Part shown: piece after piece, positions 875 to 57,841 of the stretch
Position numbering within the stretch: the first letter of the stretch is position 1
Layout of the letters: each line of letters begins with the position of its first letter
DNA from: Acrasis kona
Lineage: Eukaryota; Heterolobosea; Eutetramitea; Acrasida; Acrasidae
Assembly (NCBI GenBank): GCA_026419775.2
Contig: JAOPGA020000927.1
Span: 19,485 to 83,484 of the forward strand
Direction of reading: 5' to 3'
Length of the DNA stretch: 64,000 bases
The notes under the pieces: generated by a model
Database searches by the model: none
Told to the model about the DNA's origin: nothing
What the model saw: the letters and a program-made list of their open reading frames with translations, nothing else
Position numbers and translations under genes: made by a program

Positions 875-3800
875 ATGGCACCATTCAAGTGCTTTGTAGT
901 CATTTCGCTTCTATTAGCAACCTTTAGTTATTTAGTGAACGCACAAGTTACAAACTATGCCTTGTCGTTCACACAAGGAAGTTATGTAAAGACACCTTCG
1001 AGCATTGTTAATAGCATTGAGTACCCTGTAACGATCGAGGCCTATGTAAGGCCGTCATCATACATGAACTTTTCTGGTGTGGCCGGGACGCTCAACGCCC
1101 AAGATTACGGGTTTGGCATCTTGCTACTTGACGGAAGTCCCGTGTTTGGAGTTGCAACGTTAGATGGATACCATCAAGTTACCACAAACAACGCTGTTCC
1201 GCTTAATGAATGGACTCATGTTGCAGGAATATATGATGGATATACATTGAGTATCTACGTGAACGCAGTTCTTGTAAATCAGACATTCGTCAACACTCCG
1301 CTACCAATCAAGACCGCATCTAGTTTAAGCTTCAATGTTGGCAATTTCCCAACAGAGTCTGATTTCGGGTTTGAAGGAGCCATAGATGAAGTTCGCGTAT
1401 GGAACAAGAGCATTTCACAACATGACATCATGACATTTTACACAACCCAACTTGATGGTTCTAACCCCAACTTGAACTCATTGAAGGTATACTATAATTT
1501 TAATGAAAAAAACGATACCAGTTATGAAGTTGTCGGTGCGGTAACCTATATTCCAAGTTGCTTCGGAAATACTTGTGTGACACCAACTTCAACCCAAAAC
1601 GCGACACCTACGCCTACTTTAGCCTCAACTACTAACCCGACCTCTACACCTACACAATCATTAGGGTCATCAACCCCAACATTTACATTTTCACCAACCG
1701 AAACACAAGTCCACGGATCCACTCCTACAACAACATTTAATTCGGAAACCATTTATTCCTCGATGACTCCAACATCTACTTTTACGGATACCAACTCTGC
1801 GACGCCGACACATTTACAAACTTTTGAGGCCAGTCAATTACCAACACCAACTCTGACGACATTAGTAACAGAAGAATTAACATTTTCACCAACGACTACA
1901 AGTATTCAAACAACAACTCCAACAACACAACCCACCGAAAATCCATCACAAACAGTCACACAAACTATCACATCTCCACCAACAACAGAGTCCATTACCC
2001 AAACACCAACTGCAACAATGGGAGAATCACCATCTTATACTCAAATGGAGATTTTGACAATGACTCCAACTCAAGTATCAACACCTTCTACTACACTAAC
2101 CTCAACGCCTAGTGAAAGTATAACACCAACGCCCTCTCAAACAACTTTTACACCTAGTGTAGAAATCACAACTACTTATTCGCCTGTTGTGGCCACTCCA
2201 ACATTTACACCAACCACATCATCACTCCCTACAGAAACACCAACAAGTACTCAAGTTGAATCTACTTCAACACCTACTGTAGCGGTCACTGATTCATTAG
2301 TACATACATCAACTCCTACAAACACTCCAACGCTAGATGTATCTAGTACAACTCCGACTCCTTCGTCAACTCGAGTTGATGTCGCTCGATCAAGTACATA
2401 TACACAGAGTGCTACTGCAACACCAACACTTGTTGATTTCAACACAGAGTCTTTAACTCCGACAGCGACTTCAAGTCACGCTAATGTGGTGACGAGTTCT
2501 GCACCAACACAAACGTTTGGAGCAACTCTTACGCCAACTAGCGTGGAAACAAATGTGCCTACTGTGAGTAGTTTCACATTAACTCCGAGTCAAACACCTA
2601 CGTTAACGACTGGAGTTGATGCTCCTACACCTAGTGCTAGTGGTAGTGTAACTCCTACGTTGATTTCGAGTCCAACGTTATCTCAAACTGAATCGTTAAC
2701 GTCGATTCCTACTCAAAGTATGACTGATACACCAACACAGGTTACAACACCTACTCCTTCGTTAACACCAACAAACACACCAACAATAGTTGTTACAAAG
2801 GCTACTGTGCCAACTCCAACACCTTCATTAACTGCAACAGATGCATTGTCGCCCACGTCTACTCCAACACTAACTAATACATTCACATCTACCCTAACAA
2901 CTACTCCAAGTGCCACCAACACAAGCACGCCAACTGCTACAGTACCAGTTATCGTGGACGCTTCATCTGATACATCAACCCCAACTGCCAATCCAACACT
3001 AGCACAGACTCCAACTTCCACGCCTACCTTGACTCCCACACCAACTTCAACTGAGACATCCACGCAGACAATAACAGCTACTCCAACACAAGCAACAACT
3101 CATATTACCACATCTACTCCAACACCAACACATTCAGCGACTTCTACTTCAACACCAACGCAGACGACAACAACATTACAGACGCCAACATCAACTCCTA
3201 CACCAACTGTGATACCCACTCAGATACCTGCTCTAACAGCTACCCCAACTCCAACCAATACTACACCCACTTTAGCAACTGTAGCAACTAATACTAGTAC
3301 AACAACTTCTACTGCAACTGTGACAGATGCACCAACAAGTACACCTACTCCAACACCAACCGCTCTTGTTACAAATACAACCGCACCTACTCCTACTGCG
3401 ACTGAAACATCAACAACAGCACCAACAGTTGTTGTTACAAACGGCACTGCGCCAACGCCAACACCTACGCCAACTCATGAATTGGATATTAACACAACTA
3501 CACCAACTGCAACGCCTGATCATACGGAGGTAACTACAAATACGACTACGCTGACATTAACGCCAACTCCTACACTAACTGCTACGCCTACGTTGACACC
3601 TACAGATACATCAAGTCATGTAGCTACTACAAATACAACTGTACCAACGCCTACAATCACTCCTTCATTGACACCAAATATTACACCGACTCCAACTGAC
3701 ACAACAACGGTTGATGTTACAAATACAACCGCACCTACTCCTACTGCAACAGAGACACATACTCCAACAGTAATTGTTGCAAACACTACTGCGCCAACAC

Positions 3801-6800
3801 TAACTCCCAACCCGACTGTTGAAGTAACCAATAGTATTGTACCCACCCCAGCACCCACTCCAACAACTGTAGCAACTAATACTAGTGCACCAACTTCTAG
3901 TTTAACTGTGACAGATACACTCACAAGTACACCTTCTCCAACTCCAACACCAACCATTGTTGCTACAAACACAACTGCGCCAACGCCTACTGCAACTGAA
4001 ACACCAACACCAACGGTTGTTACAAATACAACTGCACCTACTCCCACATCAACTGCTACTGAACATGCTACTAATACAACTGCACCAACTACAACACCTA
4101 CTGTTACAGAAACAAGTACACCAACTGCCACTCCAACAACTATTACAAATACAACTTCTCCAATACCTACACCCACTCCAACTGTAGAAGTCACCGATAC
4201 AATTGCACCCACGCCCACTCCAACGCCTACTATTAGCTTAACCAGTACAAGTGCACCTACTGCTACATCAACTGTAACTGAGACTTCAACACCGATGGAG
4301 ACAAATACCACTGCGCCAACTCCAACACCTACTTCAACTGTTGAAGTGACCAATACCACTATACCGACTGTAACTCCAACTCCTACACCAACTAATGAAT
4401 TGGTTACGAATACAACTACATCAACTGCTACACCGACGTTGACACCAACTGATGCCTCAACCCACGTAGCTACAAATACAAGTGCACCCACTCCAACTCC
4501 TACTGTTGTTGTTACCAACACAAGCTCACCAACTGCTACACCTACTCATACGGAGGCAACTACGAATACGACTACACCGACATTGACGCCGACTTCTACA
4601 CCAACCGTAGTAGTCACTAATACAAGTTCACCTACACCAACTGTAGTTGTAACAAATACATTGTCGCCCACGTCTACTTCAACACTAACTGATACACCCA
4701 CAACTACTCCAATACCTACTCCAAGTGCCACCAACACAAGCATGCCAACTGCTACAGTACCAGTTATCGTGGACTCTACTTCTAATACATCAACTCCAAC
4801 ACAAACACCAACACAGACTCCATCTCCCACGTCTACCTTGACCCCCACTCCAACTGACATACCTACGTTGACACAAACACCCAATCCAACGCAAACACCA
4901 ACACAGACTCCGATTCAAACCCAAACATCAACTCCAACTTCAACGCCAACACAGATACCAACTCCTACTGAGACACCCACTCAGACACTAACTCCTACTT
5001 TAAATACTACGCCTACACCAACTCTAACTCTAACTCCTATGCCTACTCAAACACCCGCTCCCACAGAAACGCCAACACAAACGTCTACACAAACACAAAC
5101 AGCTATTCCAACTCAAACACCTACAGCAACTCCTACTATAACGCCAACTCAGACTCAAACACCAACTCCAACTTTTACTGAGACACTCACCCAAACACCT
5201 ACCCTAACAGTTACTCCCACAACAACTCCAACTGAAACACCCACCCAAACACCTACTCAAACATCAACTTTAAATCCCACACTAACCGCTACGCCTACGT
5301 TGACACCTACAGATACCCCAAGTCATGTAGCTACCAATATGAGTGCACCAACTCCTACTGTTGTTGTTACCAACACAAGTACACCAACTGCTACACCTAC
5401 TCTTATGGAGGTATCTACGAATACGACTACACCTACATCGACGTCAACTCCTATATCAACTGTAGTTGTAACAAATACATCGTCTACTTCTACCCTAACT
5501 CCTACTCCAACTGCTACGAATACAAGTTCGCCAACATCTACAACGACAGTCGCAGAATCTTCTTATACATCAACTCCTACTTCAACATCATCTTCTACCC
5601 CAACAGGGACACCAACACAAACACCAACCTCTACGACCATCGTGATCCCTACACAGAGTACAAGTACAGATGTATCAACTCCAATACCTACACCTACACC
5701 GAGTTCAAGTTCAGATACATCAACTCCAACACATGTATCTAGTTCGACTGTTGCATCAAGTACATTTACACCAGTCGTGTCATCAACAGAGACATTGGGA
5801 CAAACTGAGACTCCAACATCTTCTCATAGAGATACAGAGACGTCGACGCCTACACCAACAAGTGGGATAACAAACACCGTTGAGATGACTTTGACACCAA
5901 CTGTAACCCAAACGGCAACTCTTGTACAAACGCCTACGTCTACGCCAACTGATGTAGTCACTAATATACCAACACATGTACCAACTACTTTTAATCCAAC
6001 TCCTACTAGTGAAATTACAGTAGAATCGATCCCTACATCAAGTCCATCAGTTACAAGTAGTTATACTCCGACATTAACTGATACGGCAACACCTACTAGT
6101 GGTTTAACAGTGTTAACTACGGAAACATCAACTCCTACAGCCACCCAAACCATATATGATACAGCCACCCAAACATCTCTAACGCCAGCCACTGTAATAC
6201 CAACTACAACAGAGTTGTCAACTGCTACTCAAATAATAAGTGATACAGTCACACCCACTGCAACACCCACCATAAGTAGCACTCCAACTGCAACAATCAC
6301 AGAAGTAACTTCTACTACGACTTTTACTGCAACATCATCAGATACACCAACTGCTACACTCACTACTAGCACACAAACTCTGACAGAAACACAATCTTCA
6401 ACATTGACTTCTACACCCATTTCAACTCCAACATCAACTACACCTATTTCTACAACTGCTACATCAACTGTAACATTAACTACTTCAGCTTCAACGCCGA
6501 CATACAGTAGTTCATCCACTCAAACTTCGACATACACACCCACTCCATCACAGCAATCTACATACAGCGCCACTCCTACTCATGTTAACGTCGCTACTAA
6601 CACAGCTACGCCTACTTTGACTCGCACTGATACTCAAACAGTTACTCCTACAGATTCAATCACCCCTACATTGACGTCCACTCCTACATCAAGTCCATCA
6701 CAAACATCTACAACTACATGTACTCCAACTCCATCGTCAACTACAACGCCCACTGATACATCGACGCCCACATACACTTCATCTCCACAAACCTCTACTC

Positions 6801-9800
6801 CTACGTTAATTCAAGTAAATACTGATACAAATACATCGACGCCTACTATGACACCAAGTTCAACATCTACGCCAACAATTACTCCCACAACAACAGTTGA
6901 TGTTACAAATACAACTAGTGCAGCTCCAACTTTAACAAATGTACAAACACCTACTGCAACGTTAATCAACAATTCGAAAACTCCTACTCCCACACCTACA
7001 ATTACTCCATCACAAACCTCAACTCCAACAGCTACAAATGCAGCTACTGCTACTTTAACGGCTACACAAACACCAACAATTATCACCACCAACGCAACTA
7101 CTTCTGCCTCACCAACTATAACAAACACACAAACACAAACTCCAACTCCATCAACAATTATAACAAATTCAACTACATCCAGTTCCACTCCAACTCCAAC
7201 GTCTACTAATTCGAACACACCATCATCTACTCCCACTCCAACACCTACAACTAGATGTAAAATCGCAGCGACATTACGATTTGCATTCGATGATCACACA
7301 TATGGAGTATCTCTGAATGGAATCAACGTACTAAACGCAACTAACGCCAATTACAATCAAATTCAAGACCTAAACATCACTACCAGTCCAAATGACATTT
7401 TATCAATATTTGGTAATAATGATATTGATACTGGTATATTAGTTGCCCAATTAACAGTCACAACCAATACCAGTTCCATATTGACATTGACTGGTAGTGA
7501 GTGGTACTGTACCAACTCTGCAAGCGCTGATAAGAATAATAACTTTTCGAGCTTTACACCGAGCGTGATACTTGGTAAGAACGAATATTCTAGTATATCG
7601 AGTAATGCTATGAGAATTACTTATCAGTCGAATTATATTGGTGACTACATGTGTAAGACTAGATTGAATTTTGGATGTGTGTCGACATCAGCTAGTGTTT
7701 CTACTCCTACTGGTTCAGTGGTTGGAACGTCCACACCGACTGCTACGCCAGTGGTGACTGTTACAAACACAGTGCTACCAACATTGACACAAACACCTAC
7801 ATCGACACCAACATTAACACCTACTCCTACTTCAACGTTGAAACCGACCGTAACACCAACGGCATCTCCAACATCTACTCCAACTCAAACACCCACATCA
7901 ACACCCACCGCGACTTTAACTCAAACACCTATTCAAACACCAACATTAATATCAACTAATTCTCCGACATTAACGCCTACTCCAACTATTACACCAACAC
8001 TCACTTCAACGCAGATACCCACACCTAGTTTAACACCAACGGAGACACCAACATTAACTTCAACACCAACTGTTACAAATATTCCAATAAGTACATTTAC
8101 TACAACGATTACGTCAACTCCAACAATGACTCCAACCACAACATCATCCCCCACTCCAACTCCTACATATAGCGTCATCACACCTACACAAATACCAACA
8201 GCAATTACTACATACTTCTTAACACTCACACCAACACCTACCCCCACACCCACCACAACTCCAACGAATATACCTACCCCCACACCTACCTCTACTCCAA
8301 TCATACTCCCATCATATGGTGTTCAATTCAATGGAATCAATTCAACCGTTATAGCACCACCCTCTCCTTACATCAACAACTTGACTTTTACAATGACGAT
8401 CGAATCGTGGATCAATCCAAATGCATTACCAACCAATTCTCCCCTCTACTCACCTATCGCTGGTAACTACTTATCCGATTCAAGCAGTGGAATTCAATTA
8501 TGTATCTTCAACGGTCATTTATCTCTTTTATTATTTGTGGATGGAGGTATTCTTCAATCAGTTGCTGCTACATCATACATACCTCTCGATACATGGTCAC
8601 ATGTAGCAGGTACCTACAACGGAGACACACTTTCTCTTTTCGTCAATGGAACGCTATCAAATACAGCCACTGTTACTACGCCTGCTCCTCAAAAGAGAAA
8701 CGTAGATACTGGTTCATTACATTCCCTAAGTAATACGCCTACGGCTCCATTTAACATAGGATACATGAATAGAGGTGGCGATAGATACTTTAGTGGAGAA
8801 TTAGATAACATTAGAGTTTGGAATCGAGAATTATCGGTAGATGATTTGAAATTATCGATGAGTAGCGGTCATGTACCATCTGGGTTGAATGAGGGATTAA
8901 TGGCTTCATTTGACTTTGATGAAATGTCGTTAAGGGATGGATCGGTTTATCAAAATGATGCAGTTGGGAATCAAATTAATTTTGTACAAGTTGATTGTGT
9001 GGTGATGGGTAATTGTAAGGCGAGTGATTCTATTCCGACTGCTACTCCTGTTGTTGGTCAGGAATCTACTGGAGCACCGACGATGGAGAGTACGTATGGA
9101 CCTGTATTGAGTGATCCTACATCAACACCGATAATGGCGCCGACATTTACGCCATCATTGACTCCTACTAGTGTTGCTTCGACAGAAATATTTACTGATA
9201 CACAAGTTTCGACTCCGATGTTGACAACTACTGCTACTCAGACATTTACTCCAGTGTACACACCGACGCCCACGGTATCGAATGTATTGTCATTAACTAG
9301 TACATTAACGAATACTCCATTACCTACAACATCTACACCAATTACTTCACAAACACCTACTGTATCACCAACAATGACCATCGCAGATACACCTACACCT
9401 AGTGTTGAATCATTGTCGACATCAACTCCAACACCAACTGCTACCGTCACAACGACTAGTACATCAACTACTATAACACCTAGTTTATTACCAACTCCAA
9501 CTATTGCATCAACTACTCAACAACCAACTACTTCTACTCCTACATCAACTCCAACTTTAACATCTACACCATCACAGATATTTACTCCTACCACAACTTT
9601 AACGACAACTCCTACTTTAGCGCCTACTTCAGAATCGACATCCACTCCCACTCCTACGCCCACTCTCACGCGTACTCCAACACCGACACCCACTCCCACA
9701 CCCAGTCCTACTCCAATACCTGTTTCAAATGCTACATCGGTATCTGTACCGACACCAACACCTACATTATCACCAACAACCACTCCAGCACCAACACCTG

Positions 9801-12800
9801 CTGATGCTACTAATTCAACTCTAATACCTATATCCACACCAACAACACCAATTACAACAAATAGAGATACATCTACATTGACTCCAACATCATCTTCCAC
9901 TGTTACCAATACTCCTACATCAACTGTGGTATCAACTAATACATCTACCCCAACACAGATTCTAACCTCAAATCAAACGCCTACTCCTTCAGCTATTCCA
10001 ACGTCTACACCCACTCAAACATCGACACTTGCTTCAAATATAACATCAACTCCTGTCTCGACACAGACAACTACTTCAACGTCCACTCCAACATCAACTG
10101 ATACACTCTCTCCAATAACGACTAATACAACTACACTTGCTTCTAGTCCTACTAGTACAAGCACTTCTACTTCAACACCCATACCTACTGTTACAAATAG
10201 TACAAGCACTCCTACTTCAGTACCCTCTCCTACACCAATACTGACTTCGACCACTAGTCAAACGCCCACACCAACGTCAGAGCATGTTTCTAATGCAACA
10301 TCAACTTTGACACCAACAATAGAAACTAATACAACTGCACCTATATCATCTTCAACACCTACTTCAACAATGGGAACTAATACAAATACACCTACTGCAA
10401 CTCCAACTGATGCAATTACATCTACACCAACTCCAGTTGATTTGCAAACCAATGCAAGTACCCCTACTTCTACACCAACAATTACAAGTACATCAGCGGT
10501 TGCAAATACAAGTACACCTACTTCAACTCCCACAGCAACGTTGGTAACAACACCAACTGTAACAAATACGAGTGTACCAACATCAACTCCAATTACATCC
10601 GCAACTACAACCAATACAATCACTCCAACACCAACTGAAGTATCAACCAACTCATCGACGCCTACACCTTCACCTACTCCAACAGTAGATATTACTAAAA
10701 CATCATCACCTACTCCTACTCCGGTTGCAGTGGTTACCAACACAAGTACAATCACACCTACCCCCACACCAATTGTCGCACAAACTAATACAAGTACTCC
10801 TACTTCAGTACCAACCGTAACAACTACATTAACAAATACTAGTACTCCTACATCAACTCCCACTCCATCTGCAGTCGTTACAAATACATCCACACCTTCA
10901 CCTACTCCAACTGTAGGTATAACAAGTACGACGTCACCTACTCCCACACCTACAAGTGTTATAGAAGTTACTAACACGACTACACCAACAGCTACACCAA
11001 CACCAACTGTAACAAATACGAGTACACCAATTCCAACTCCAATTACATCCGCAACCACAACCAATACACTAACACCCACTTCTCCACCTACTACCACATT
11101 AGATGTCACAAACACATCATCACCTACTCCTACTCCGGTTGCAGTGGTCACAAACACAAGTACAATAACACCTACCACCACACCAATTGTCGTACAAACT
11201 AATACAAGTACACCAACACCTACCCCCACACCAACTGGCATACAAACTAATACAAGTACTCCTACTTCAATACCAACCGTAACAACTACATTAACAAATA
11301 CTAGTACTCCCACATCAACTCCCACTCCATCTGCAATCGCTACTAACACATCCGCATCTTCACCTACCCCAACTGTAGGTATCACGAATACGACATCACC
11401 CACACCCACACCCACTGTTATAGAAGTTACTAACACGACTACACCAACGGCAACTCCTACACATACAGAAATAACTACAAACTCATCGACTCCAACACCA
11501 TCATCATTTGTTACCAACACAACTTTATCAACACCAACTTCCACACATGTTGCTACAAATACATCAACATCTACTCCAACACCAACACCTACTCCAACAA
11601 ACGTATCAAATACAAGTAGTATACCCACTGCTACACCTACTATTACACTAAACACAACAGTACCAGTTCCTACTCCAACGTTAATCACCACCAATACAAC
11701 TACACCAACTGCAACACCAACACCCGCTCTTATACCCACAAACACAAGTGCACCAACAATAACAAACACTCCAACACCATTACCAACCACACTCACTCCC
11801 ACACCCTCATTTACACCAAAAGTAATCATTGATTCCGATTTCAATTACATCTGTATCAACTCCACCATTCACTTATCTCTCTCGGTTATAAACAGCGGTA
11901 ACACCCTAGCCATAGTTTTATTAGAAACAAATTATCTAAATAGCTCAGCAACGATAGTTCCAGCAACTAATCAATCCGTTATAGTATTGGATAAAGTATC
12001 GATCGGTATATTTAATATATCGATCGATGATGGAAATTCAATTCCGAAGATTTATCGATTATTAATTGCTTATCAGTCGATTGATTATAGTGTTATTGTG
12101 AACGTAATGAATGGAACGTTACCTCCAGTTGATTGTAGAGTTTATTCTAATCAAACAAATACTCCTACACCGACTCCTTTGGTTATTGGTACTTTACTAC
12201 CAATTGGAACATCTGTGGTTACAAATAGACCTACGCCTACACCTGTGGTTGTAGTTACAAACACAAGTAGACCAACTTCAACTCCTACACCAAGTGATAC
12301 TCCCATACCTACACCTCCACCAGTTGTTGTGGTTACAAACACAAGTAGACCAACTGCAGCACCTACACCAAGTGTTACTCCCACACCAACACCTGTAGTT
12401 GTAGTTACAAATACAAGTAGACCAACTTCAACTCCTACGCCAACGCCAATTCTTATCAAACCATCAACTTTTACTCCAACACCCACACCAACTACAATTC
12501 ATTCATGTTTCAACACATCTTCACAATCACCTCAAGTTTGTTCTTCACACGGCACTTGTACCTCTCAAGATTTCTGTATCTGTAACGAACAATACACTGG
12601 TCAATTATGTAACATTCCAATATGTTACTCCATAAGTGCAACCGATCCAACCGTATGTTCGTCACAAGGTACTTGTCAATTACCAAATCAATGCCAATGC
12701 AATTCGACCGAAATTTATGGTCAAGAATGCGAAAATTATTTGAGTCGATTATGGAACTTTAATAATGCCGGTAATGGTCTCGTCGGTAAATTTTACAATC

Positions 12801-15800
12801 GAGATGAAAATTTAATTTTTGAAAAATTTGTAAAAATCAAAGTGAATTGTAATGATGTATTGGGCGTCGATTCTAGATTTGGGGTCACCTCTCCTAACTG
12901 TTACTACACCAGAATTTCAAAATTCGATTCTCAATTCGAATTAATTTTCGGATCGAATGCAACGTTGGGAATTGGATCTATCGTTCAATTTATCAAATCG
13001 AATCAAAACGCTAGCGTCACGATATTACCGCCAATAAGTGCTACTCAACCGTACGTTCAAGTCGTATCGCCGACCAACGACATCATTGGCGTTTGCACGG
13101 GTACGATCGTCACGTTAGATGGTTCTGGATCGAATTCCATCGATGGTAGATCTTTGAAATTTAAATGGACCATCAATGACACTAATTTGAATAATGGTCA
13201 ACTTGGAGATTTGACAAGCTCCACTTTGAGTTTCAACTCGAATCAAACTGTAATAGGTGTCAGTTATGCATTCACGTTGACCGTGACCAACTTTTTGAAT
13301 GCATCTTCTAGCGTTACAAAAGTTCTTACAAAAGTAAATTCTGCAGTTCCGGTCATTATTGTAAGTGGCACGTTGAATAGAACATGGGCTCGAACTCAAC
13401 CAAATACGATTCAAGTCGGTGCTTCGGTTTGTACAGGAGAAGCGGTAACTTACCTTTGGTCAATCCAATCATCACCAGTCGCTAGTTTCTCGTTCAGTCA
13501 ACCACCCACTAGTAACTTTATTTACTTTAACAAGTTGACCTTACCTCAAATACAAGGAACGTATGTATTTAGAATAACGGTTACTACATTATCTGGGTTG
13601 AGTGCAAGTCAAGATATTACAGTAGCGGTCGAATTGTCCAAATTAACGGCTGCGATCGTTGGAGGTAATGCTCCCATTACAACGTTGGCTGGAGCGTTGA
13701 AATTAGTTTCTGGTTCGACCGATCCGGATCAGATTACAACGGAACAGTCGACTTTTGCATGGACTTGTTCATCTGGAGACGACGGCATCAGTACGTGTCC
13801 AGTTGGGTTGACTGAATTTTTATCAACTTCGAATTCTGCATCATTGACCTATCCTGGTGCCGTTCCAACTGGTAAATACACCTTTGGGTTGACTTACTCC
13901 ATTGGATCTAGATCCTCTTCTACATCAGTTACAATCACTGTAGTTCCCGCTGACTTCCCGTTAGCTACCATCAATACCATCGTGCCATCTACGATAAACT
14001 CTGCTGATAAGTTGATCATCATTGGTGGTATCAAATCAACTAGTACTCAATCCAAACTCATTTGGAGCGTAATGAATACTGATACCAAAACTGTATTTTT
14101 AGATTTTGTAACAGTCGGTTCTTCGCTTGTGATTTATCCTAATGCATTAACTCAGGGACGTAATTATGCATTTACATTAACTGCTACAAATGAATATGGT
14201 TCAACTAGTGCATCAGCAACTACTTTTGTAAACTCCGCTCCAATTCCTGGTTCTTGTACTTTGAGTCCACCTACGGGAATAAGCGGCAGCGTGTTTACTG
14301 TAAAATGTACGAAATGGATAAGCACATCTGATATGAACTACAAGTATGAAGTTGACACTGGAGATGGAACAGGTTACACTACTTTTGTAAACTACAATCA
14401 AGCATCGAGCGCAAATTTGAAACTACCATCTGGTAACTACAATAACGATAATGGAGTGTTGATAAGAATTACTGGTATGGACACTTACAAAAGCTTTGCA
14501 TCTACAGTGATTTCAGCTAGCATTACGCCTGGCTCCAAAACTTGATTTAGCCTTCCATCTCACCAGCGGCTTTGGCCAGCAAATTGGATCTGAGTGGACA
14601 AACGCCTGAAGAAGCTGGTCAGAGCATTTTGAGCGTCATTTCTACATTACCGCTCGCTAGTGCTGCTTTTGATTGTAGATCAAAAACAAACGCTTGTAAT
14701 TCAAATGGAGATTGTGTAGCTTCGACTGGTTCTTGTAACTGTCACACTGGTTATTATGGAACTGATTGTTTATTAACTGGCGAGACATTAGCAGTGATGC
14801 AAAATACAATTAAAACAGCTTATGGTAATTATTTAGCTAGCGTGAACTGCGATGCGGCTAGAGCAGCTGGATTCAATGTTCCTAGCGATTGCGTCAGCGC
14901 TCCGTTGGATGCCGATACCATGGACATGCAAGTCGGTGTCACTAGCGGAGTGATGAGTGACCCGAGCAGTGCATCTGGATCTACAATTGTTAGTGTTTTA
15001 TCGACGCTAAATAGCTACTTGAAGTCATCGAGCGTTGGTATCGTAGATTTTAACAAGTATGGTGTTATATTGGGAGGTGTCACTAGTTATATCAACAGTA
15101 GAGCTTATTCTAGAGTAGCTAGTACTGCTCGTAGTTTAAATAACGAACAAAAGGAAATTGCAAATGTAGCTAGTTCAACTATGACGTTTATATCATCTAG
15201 ATTAATTAGCGATAGTTTACCAGGTGAAGCACCAATTTCATTAGCTATGCAGGGCACAACCATTGTAGCTCAAAGTCAATCATCATCTGGATTAAACAGT
15301 CAACTCAATTACACTATACCCAACGGAGGTCTCAACAGCAGCGCTGCTATTTCTCTCAATGGAGATTTAGCCAAAGACAGTACCGTAGTAGACTCCATTA
15401 CAAATACTTCAAGATCAATTTCAACAACCGATACTTTGAGCGTAAACATAGCCTTGTATGCATTCAATCCATTCTCCTATGTATCGGATTCTTCGGTCAA
15501 CTTGACCAGTAGTGTACTCAGCATGAGCGTATTGACCAACAACGGAAGTAACATTCGAGTGTATAACACTACCAAACCAATCACGTTGACTATCCCAGGT
15601 ACCTTCAACGTATCGCTCTACAGCACAAATACTAGCTCGCTCAAAAACGGTAGCTGGGTACCTACACCCGTATGTGCCTACTGGGATATTTTTACAAACT
15701 CTTGGCAAACTGATGGTGTCAAACTCATAAGCTTTAGTCAGAATGCTGTTGTATGTCAAGCTAATCACTTGACTGATTTTAGCGTGCAACAACTACTGGT

Positions 15801-55974: not shown

Positions 55975-57613
55975 ATGCTGGTCAGGTTTCGCAGAAGACA
56001 CATCCTTGAGACGATACGGAAATATCACAAAGGGGATTCCAATGAACAAAGCAGTTTAAAACACCAATACGATTTAGTTTGTATTGGTGGTGGCAGTGGA
56101 GGATTGGCCGCCGCCAAACGTGCCCACTTGGAGCTACAATCGCGCGACATACAACCTAAAATTGCAATTGTCGATTACCGGGAACATCCTAACATTGTTA
56201 ACACATCACCCGATCGTCCCGAGATTAATTGGAGGTGGGGACTTGGTGGTACTTGCACAAATGTAGGATGCATTCCCAAGAAAATTATGCACACAGCGGC
56301 TCTGTATGGTGAATATGTTCAGAATGCATCGGAGTTTGGTTGGAAGGTGCCAAGCACAGTTGAACATGATTGGGAGTCTCTCGTTGAAAATGTTCAAAAT
56401 CACATCAGAAGCATACACTTTGGTTATAGGTCAGACATGATGTTGAACAAGATTGAGCACATCAATGCAAGGGCCAAGTTTCTAGACAAACATACCATAG
56501 AAGTGACTGATGCTAAAGGGAACGTAAAAACAATAACATCAAGACGCTTCATCATTGCTGTTGGTTGCATGCCCAAATATCCTGACATTGAAGGTGCCAA
56601 AGAGTATGCCATTACAAGTGACGAACTTTTTGCTTTAATAAAACCTCCAAATAAAACATTAGTTGTTGGTGCGTCTTACATTGCTTTAGAAAGTGCTGGA
56701 TATCTAAGCGGTTTAAATCAAAAGGTAACTGTTATGATGAGATCCATACCTCTGCGTGGGTTTGATCAGGATTGCGCTCAAAAGATTGTTGAGTTCATGA
56801 AGGAAAGGGGAACAACTTTTAAACAAGGTTGTGTGCCGACTAAAATAAGAAAAAATAAAAATAGTTTTGTAGTTGAATATGTTGACGACAAGAACAGCGT
56901 CCATGTTGAAGAGTATGATACAGTTTTGTTTGCAGTTGGAAGGAAGTGTGTTGCGGATGAGTTGGGTCTGCAGCAACTTGGTGTCAAGTTTGACAATGAC
57001 AAGATTGATGTAAATGAGTTTGAACAAACAAGTGTTCCTCACATTTATGCTGTGGGCGATTGTATAAACGTAAGTTTTTTCCTTCAAAACAAACATTAAA
57101 TTAGCTCAGAGAGGATTAGAATTGACGCCTACAGCCATTCATGCTGGATCACTTTTATCCCGTAGAATATATTCAGAAGAATTGGTCACGAAGAATCACA
57201 AGCACATCATGGACTACACAAATGTACCAACAACAGTATTCACTCCATTAGAGTATGGTTCCTGCGGAATGTCTGAGGAGGATACAATTAAAAAGTACGG
57301 TCAAGATAACATTGAAGTTTACCTCATCGGCTTCACTCCACTTGAACATGAATTCACTCATAAAGATACTAATAAAACATACATGAAAGTTATTTGTGTT
57401 GGTTCAGAAGAAAAAATAATTGGGTTCCATTATTTAGGACCTAATGCAGGCGAGATTACACAAGGTGTTGCTGTTGCTATCCGTCTTGGTGTTACAAAAC
57501 ACGATCTTGATTCCACCGTCGGCATTCATCCTACTGTTGCAGAGGAAATGACTAGACTGAACATTACAAGAAGAAGTGGGTTAGTTGCAGAGAAGAGAGG
57601 ATGCTGAGGATAG
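55975..57613 (+). CDS. TXNRD: Selenoprotein thioredoxin reductase (high-Mr type), UGA = Sec
   Basis: Exons 55975..57069 and 57110..57613 (intron 40 nt) give 532 residues if TGA at 57605-57607 is read as selenocysteine. FAD motif GGGSGG is at 38-43; the redox pair is GGTCTNVGCIPKK (Cys94, Cys99) in the form typical of thioredoxin rather than glutathione reductase; the NAD(P) Rossmann fold starts VVGASYIALESAGYL; AVGDC and LELTPTAIHAG close the FAD domain across the splice; GIHPTVAEEMTRL gives the catalytic His-Glu. The frame then reads Arg-Gly-Cys-TGA-Gly-TAG, exactly the GCUG tail of animal-type TrxR, in which Cys-Sec passes electrons to thioredoxin. A hairpin and a SECIS-like fold follow. 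The Arg-rich N-terminus suggests mitochondrial import. A plain reading would stop at Cys530. Confidence 0.9.
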
Positions 57614-57633
57614 ACCTGTCCTCATGGACAGGT
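57614..57633 (+). promoter_or_regulatory. Hairpin starting six bases after the Sec UGA
   Basis: ACCTGTCC, loop TCAT, GGACAGGT: a perfect 8-bp stem with a 4-base loop. It starts immediately after the TAG stop, with six bases between UGA and stem. That spacing is like the selenocysteine redefinition element of SELENON mRNA, which raises readthrough at UGA. Function here is inferred. Confidence 0.6.
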
Positions 57634-57687
57634 TAATTATCTAAGGTATGAAATTTACATTGTATGCAAGATTGAGTGGATTGGATA

Positions 57688-57731
57688 ATGATGGCGCAAT
57701 GCTCAAACTTTTCGGTTGTGTTGCTGCTTGA
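57688..57731 (+). promoter_or_regulatory. SECIS-like element in the reductase 3' UTR
   Basis: ATGA at 57688-57691 pairs as a quartet with TGA at 57729-57731. Between them GGCGCAATGC can pair with GTGTTGCTGCT (one bulge, some GU). The apical loop starts TCAAAC, giving unpaired AAA at 57705-57707, 13 nt after ATGA and 22 nt before TGA. This is the eukaryotic SECIS plan. Distance from the UGA is about 80 nt. Folding was done by eye. Confidence 0.65.
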
Positions 57732-57841
57732 CGTCTGTGTTTGCTGTTGCATGTAACGATATAAATATTTTTACTTTTGAGAACCTTTTATCCTGTTATC
57801 CTCATGTCTGAAATGTATTTGTTGTAATATCGAGAATAAGA

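Follow-up and report, generated by a model that had tools for sequence, protein, structure and literature searches.

The window, a 64,000-nucleotide stretch of the Acrasis kona genome (G000:C457:19485-83484), carries on its forward strand a two-exon gene for a large thioredoxin reductase (TrxR), in whose frame a TGA stands one codon before the final stop. A perfect hairpin lies directly behind that stop, and a SECIS-like fold follows in the 3' UTR. The assembly searched in this study comprises 37.35 Mb in 1021 contigs; the available part of the genome paper gives a genome size of 44.02 Mb (PMC11589745), and the searched assembly may therefore be incomplete. The features of the TrxR locus are as follows.

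55975..57069, forward strand: TrxR exon 1, encoding an Arg-rich N-terminus, the FAD/NAD domains and the redox motif CTNVGC
57070..57109, forward strand: TrxR intron of 40 nt, GT...AG, the removal of which gives exactly the database protein P0001
57110..57613, forward strand: TrxR exon 2, with the terminus Gly-Cys-UGA-Gly-UAG
57605..57607, forward strand: UGA, the penultimate TrxR codon, which we read as selenocysteine (Sec)
57614..57633, forward strand: hairpin ACCTGTCC-TCAT-GGACAGGT with 8 perfect pairs, a proposed Sec redefinition element
57680..57741, forward strand: SECIS-like element, with ATGA at 57688-57691, AA from 57705 and TGA at 57729-57731

The TrxR gene, its relatives and its paralogue

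An earlier note on this DNA, made from the letters alone, had described an otherwise complete high-Mr TrxR ending in frame with GGA TGC TGA GGA TAG and had predicted that automatic annotation would stop at the Cys. All of this holds. In the spliced coding sequence, for which one intron is needed, the tail reads GGA (57599-57601), TGC (57602-57604), TGA (57605-57607), GGA (57608-57610) and TAG (57611-57613). Translated as far as the TGA, the spliced frame is a 100% match to P0001, a 530-aa entry named thioredoxin reductase (NADPH) from Acrasis kona, the last residue of which is the Cys just before the TGA. The protein matches TIGR01438 (the TGR subfamily) with 607.6 bits against a cut-off of 475.85, and the translation of exon 1 contains the CxxxxC redox centre as CTNVGC. 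Precomputed Pfam domains of P0001 do not include the glutaredoxin domain PF00462, which is present in many other matches, so the enzyme is not a TGR. The eight best solved chains, which we take to be mostly mammalian, are all titled thioredoxin reductase or thioredoxin reductase 1. The Arg-rich N-terminus may be a mitochondrial signal.

The earlier note had also argued that a TGA between Cys and a Gly-stop pair was unlikely to arise by chance. The two strands of the window together contain 2718 TGA triplets, the TrxR's own counted; a single codon separates the TGA from a further stop in 194 cases (7.1%), and in 10 (0.37%) that codon encodes Gly. Homology is the stronger argument. These ten occurrences also give some room to the view that the UGA is an ordinary stop, that the enzyme ends at Gly-Cys, and that the Gly-TAG which follows is vestigial or fortuitous. 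For the reasons set out below we consider this very improbable.

Of 8000 candidates scored in the search with the TrxR protein, 7967 passed the E-value limit; C-termini were counted among the 120 matches listed. Cys is the last residue in 118 of these (P0001 included), 111 of which end in Gly-Cys; the exceptions are P0077, with an unrelated end, and P0090, which ends GCGGGA. None of the 120 terminates in GCCG or GCSG, a count made on protein entries, in which the codon after the Cys is not visible. The annotation fault of P0001 may extend to the many related entries with a terminal Cys.

A second A. kona TrxR gene, beyond what the earlier note had seen, lies on contig C423 and encodes a protein with 53% identity over query residues 87-522. 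Its tail is Ser-Gly-Cys-TGA-Gly-TAA, with GGT TAA as its Gly and stop codons where the window gene has GGA TAG. In a midpoint-rooted tree of 23 rows, the window TrxR groups with Naegleria and Willaertia proteins (support 100/99), and the paralogue with a second Naegleria lovaniensis protein in a separate clade (100/98). Because Acrasis and Naegleria proteins occur in both clades, the duplication would predate the split of these genera, unless the root falls inside either clade. That Cys-TGA-Gly-stop was kept after so old a duplication, despite the different Gly and stop codons, argues against an ordinary stop.

Selenocysteine machinery and SECIS-like elements

The earlier note had named tRNA-Sec, EFsec, SBP2 and SPS2 as the machinery whose presence would support a selenoprotein. 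Candidates for all four were found in the A. kona genome, that for EFsec scoring below the NCBIfam cut-off, and their presence stands against the reading of the UGA as an ordinary stop. For tRNA-Sec there were nine genome matches, three of which, at 62.3 bits, exceed the gathering score of 47. These three copies of equal score (L001-L003, on C279, C779 and C912) differ in their surroundings: L002 and L003 have nearly identical sequence close to the gene on either side, and L001 does not share it. ARAGORN found no tRNA in the window, the tRNA-Sec genes sitting elsewhere in the genome, and no Rfam family reached its gathering score in the window. For SelD, one exon was matched (256.6 bits against a cut-off of 125) at the following locus.

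G000:C835:40000-47500, reverse strand: SelD locus L048, of the Cys type (RCGCK) as read from the translation

The frames upstream of SelD on the same strand look, by eye, like a cysteine desulfurase, which is our assumption. Together the two are perhaps a NifS-SPS fusion. Such fusions have been reported in Naegleria gruberi and Acanthamoeba in the available part of PMC4561486.

SepSecS was found with 346.3 and 347.4 bits. EFsec is spread over several exons on C540; the joined reading carries the Pfam domain euk_SelB_III, and its nearest solved chain is eEFSec (7zjw_E, 9.3e-100), far ahead of EF-Tu, while against NCBIfam selB it scores 176.3 bits, under the cut-off of 242.25. Of the eight L7Ae matches in the genome, one on C545, chosen by eye, was alone compared with solved structures; for this SBP2-like domain, taken by itself, the nearest chain is SBP2 (7zjw_B, 9.5e-22), followed by an L7Ae at 2e-5. 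PSTK is represented by a weak candidate, with selen_PSTK as its best NCBIfam family and 59.1 and 50.6 bits against cut-offs of 290.5 and 382.35.

A third candidate selenoprotein gene provides a comparison for the 3' ends of the two TrxR genes.

G000:C560:2499-2723, reverse strand: SelW-like gene L060, reading Cys-Thr-Ala-TGA (TGA in CxxU), with a SECIS-like fold behind the stop

Four GPx loci were also read in A. kona and have Cys, with no Sec among them.

The SECIS-like fold of the window TrxR begins 80 nt after the UGA. Rfam RF00031 (SECIS_1) matches 57680-57741 with 16.0 bits, less than its gathering score of 35; the 901 bases given yielded this match and one other. The E-value is 6.8 over 4227 families and about 0.0016 for one family named beforehand. 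The 3' ends of the other two genes also match below the gathering score: 291 bases of the paralogue yielded five matches, SECIS_1 among them with 15.2 bits, and 351 bases of the SelW-like gene yielded four, with SECIS_1 at 19.0 bits. Thus SECIS_1 is among the matches downstream of the UGA, in sense orientation, in 3/3 candidate selenoprotein 3' ends, each a short stretch. When the 3-kb locus of the paralogue was searched, SECIS_1 was not listed at E up to 10, and genome-wide at the same limit none of the three genes was listed. Of its 895 first-look candidates the genome-wide search scored 133, and the SECIS-like places of the three genes may not be among these; taken together, the two outcomes indicate that the model alone is insufficient to find these elements.

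We complemented the model with a structural scan for [AG]TGA, 9-13 nt, AA, and TGA around a stable hairpin, which returned -9.0 kcal/mol for the window gene, -11.2 for the paralogue and -11.9 for the SelW-like gene. Among 600 random 300-nt stretches one reached -9 and none reached -11 kcal/mol; among 3000 window stretches without the TrxR 3' end, 23 reached -9 and 16 reached -11 (0.5-0.8%), counts in which a few distinct places may appear often, as the random stretches overlap. A bacterial-type SECIS as the main signal was dropped on three grounds: the intron in the gene, the presence of SBP2-like and SepSecS genes in the genome, and the SECIS core downstream of the TrxR.

The low SECIS scores speak for an ordinary stop, and SECIS-like folds behind the UGA in both TrxR genes speak against it. 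Considering these folds with the Sec machinery and the like tail layout of the paralogue, we conclude from sequence comparison that the penultimate UGA of the A. kona TrxR almost certainly encodes selenocysteine. The interpretation of the earlier note, that this TrxR is a selenoprotein, is thereby supported.

Apart from these genes, the highest-scoring SECIS_1 match in the genome-wide search (22.7 bits, E 0.97) is at L051 (G000:C130:40099-40163, reverse strand). It lies behind a frame of 60 codons, opening after ATG-GTA-CTC-TGA, for which no homologue was found. We do not claim L051 as a selenoprotein, the structural scan having returned nothing there and the frame being without homologues; chance and a tiny new selenoprotein are both offered as explanations.

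The hairpin behind the UGA

Like the second gene, the hairpin lay beyond what the earlier note had seen. In the window it stands directly behind TGA-GGA-TAG, 6 nt after the UGA; in the paralogue a hairpin with the arms ACCTGTCGG and CCGACAGGT stands directly behind TGA-GGT-TAA, again at exactly 6 nt. Perfect pairs number 8 in the former and 9 in the latter, the stem of which RNAfold extends to 14. The 7-bp base is identical in both, the eighth pair is reversed between them (C-G against G-C), and both predicted loops have four bases, the last three being CAT. This comparison is one of two paralogues of one genome, with one two-sided change. The 196 nt from the UGA onward fold with a z of -3.08.

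Throughout the 37.35-Mb assembly, the arm pattern ACCTGTCN{4,24}GACAGGT occurs at three places, two of which are the TrxR genes (backward control, one place); the third (L036) lies inside a 284-codon open frame of another, unrelated protein. A looser pattern, TGA-N6-ACCTG-N{6,36}-CAGGT, occurs at 23 places against 39 in the control, and among the 23 the TGA is preceded by a long open frame only in the two TrxR genes (177 and 493 codons, against 0-38 elsewhere). One of the other sites, L082 (G000:C716:3028-3069), has TGA-N6-ACCTGTTCAA...TTGAACAGGT with a longer perfect stem, of 10 bp, and only 16 open codons upstream. Behind 123 stops of frames of at least 150 codons, taken stop to stop in six frames from the window and loci L001-L051 (not all of them genes), a perfect stem of at least 8 bp starts within 15 nt in three cases: the two TrxR genes and one other, with 9 bp and a 19-nt loop.

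These distributions bear on whether the common hairpin could be chance, or the remnant of a recent duplication or gene conversion. Only two sequences are compared, and perfect hairpins of at least 8 bp start within 15 nt of 28/4000 random window sites, which leaves some scope for such an origin. The proteins are nevertheless 53% identical, Acrasis and Naegleria proteins occur in both separate clades, the stop and Gly codons differ between the paralogues, the eighth pair has changed on both sides, and of the three occurrences of the arms in the assembly two are those of the TrxR genes. We therefore judge a chance or recent common origin improbable.

Two broader descriptions of the hairpin were rejected. 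It is not a general 3'-UTR feature, since its arm pattern occurs at three places, the third within the L036 frame, and it does not accompany every A. kona selenoprotein, since the SelW-like gene is without it: no perfect stem of at least 5 bp starts within 15 nt of that UGA, where RNAfold gives a weaker fold. The hairpin pattern occurs at no place in the prokaryote genomes and at eight places in viral contigs, none of them matching TrxR better than E 0.4, and the TrxR protein found no relative in the viral contigs.

Known systems and a proposed role for the hairpin

The A. kona TrxR resembles animal TXNRD1 and TXNRD2 in its high-Mr architecture, its CxxxxC centre and a penultimate Sec in a Gly-Cys-Sec-Gly tail; it differs in being a protist gene, in belonging to a clade with Naegleria and Willaertia, and in having a hairpin directly behind the UGA. 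Large Sec-TrxRs are also known, by UGA and SECIS, in Acanthamoeba and Naegleria. In the available part of PMC8038987, the Acanthamoeba castellanii TrxR-L entry stops at the UGA, which is followed by Gly and a stop, and a 3' UTR SECIS is predicted; for the large TrxR of Naegleria fowleri, both the UGA and a SECIS are stated. According to the same part, the Acanthamoeba SECIS lies 282-355 nt behind the stop, whereas that of A. kona starts at 67 nt. Unlike these amoebae, A. kona has two large Sec-TrxR genes, with a hairpin in both. Large Sec-TrxRs are thus already known, and what is new is the corrected reading of both A. kona genes and their common hairpin. A literature search for Acrasis kona and selenoprotein found no paper, and the main text of the genome paper (PMC11589745) has no word starting with "selen" or "thioredoxin".

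Two precedents for the hairpin are described in the available part of PMC3628699. The selenocysteine redefinition element of SelN is a stem-loop 6 nt behind its UGA; the spacing is equal, but the SelN element lies in coding sequence and the A. kona hairpin right behind the stop, in the 3' UTR. Human SelS, with a penultimate Sec, has at the start of its 3' UTR a stem-loop, SL1, that promotes Sec insertion in the native context. SL1 lies 9 nt behind the UGA of another protein family and its function has been shown, whereas the A. kona hairpin lies at 6 nt and its function is deduced. Further papers treat redefinition elements (PMC8704476, PMC9599142, PMC12936836); the available parts of these and of PMC3628699 name none in a TrxR, which is not proof of absence in print.

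On account of the SelN and SelS precedents, we lean modestly toward the view that the hairpin acts as a Sec redefinition element, that is, a recoding enhancer. The main rival to this view is that the UGA is Sec and the hairpin is otherwise employed, for example as a protein site controlling the stability or translation of the two TrxR mRNAs. That the 7-bp base is alike in sequence, beyond what pairing needs, would suit a protein site, as would a SelW-like gene without a hairpin. An exact 6-nt spacing in both genes, however, would be unneeded by a UTR site and needed by an element facing the ribosome, and the proximal stem-loop of SelS, where Sec is also penultimate, promotes Sec insertion natively. 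A regulatory site is thus a real possibility of rather less than even probability.

Under the preferred reading of the hairpin as a redefinition element, SBP2 bound to the SECIS would recruit EFsec and Sec-tRNA to the UGA, and the hairpin 6 nt behind it would stall the ribosome, so that Sec insertion beats termination. The resulting Gly-Cys-Sec-Gly tail would pass electrons from the FAD/CTNVGC centre to thioredoxin. More tentatively, and with a confidence somewhat short of even, we propose that heterolobosean TrxRs have a dedicated UGA-redefinition hairpin right behind the stop, kept since before the Acrasis/Naegleria split.

As it stands, the database entry of the A. kona TrxR is without the residue expected to do the chemistry. 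Should the hairpin prove to be a recoding element, it would offer a compact example, open to experiment, of a penultimate UGA assisted by a local element in a lineage distant from animals. If a heterolobosean hairpin has indeed been kept, the penultimate UGA of TrxR would rely on a local element besides the SECIS, and redefinition elements would be older and more widespread than their discovery in animal genes suggests.

Elsewhere in the window, an open frame of 4556 codons at positions 875-14545 shows an extreme abundance of Thr-Pro-Thr repeats and by eye resembles a large surface protein.
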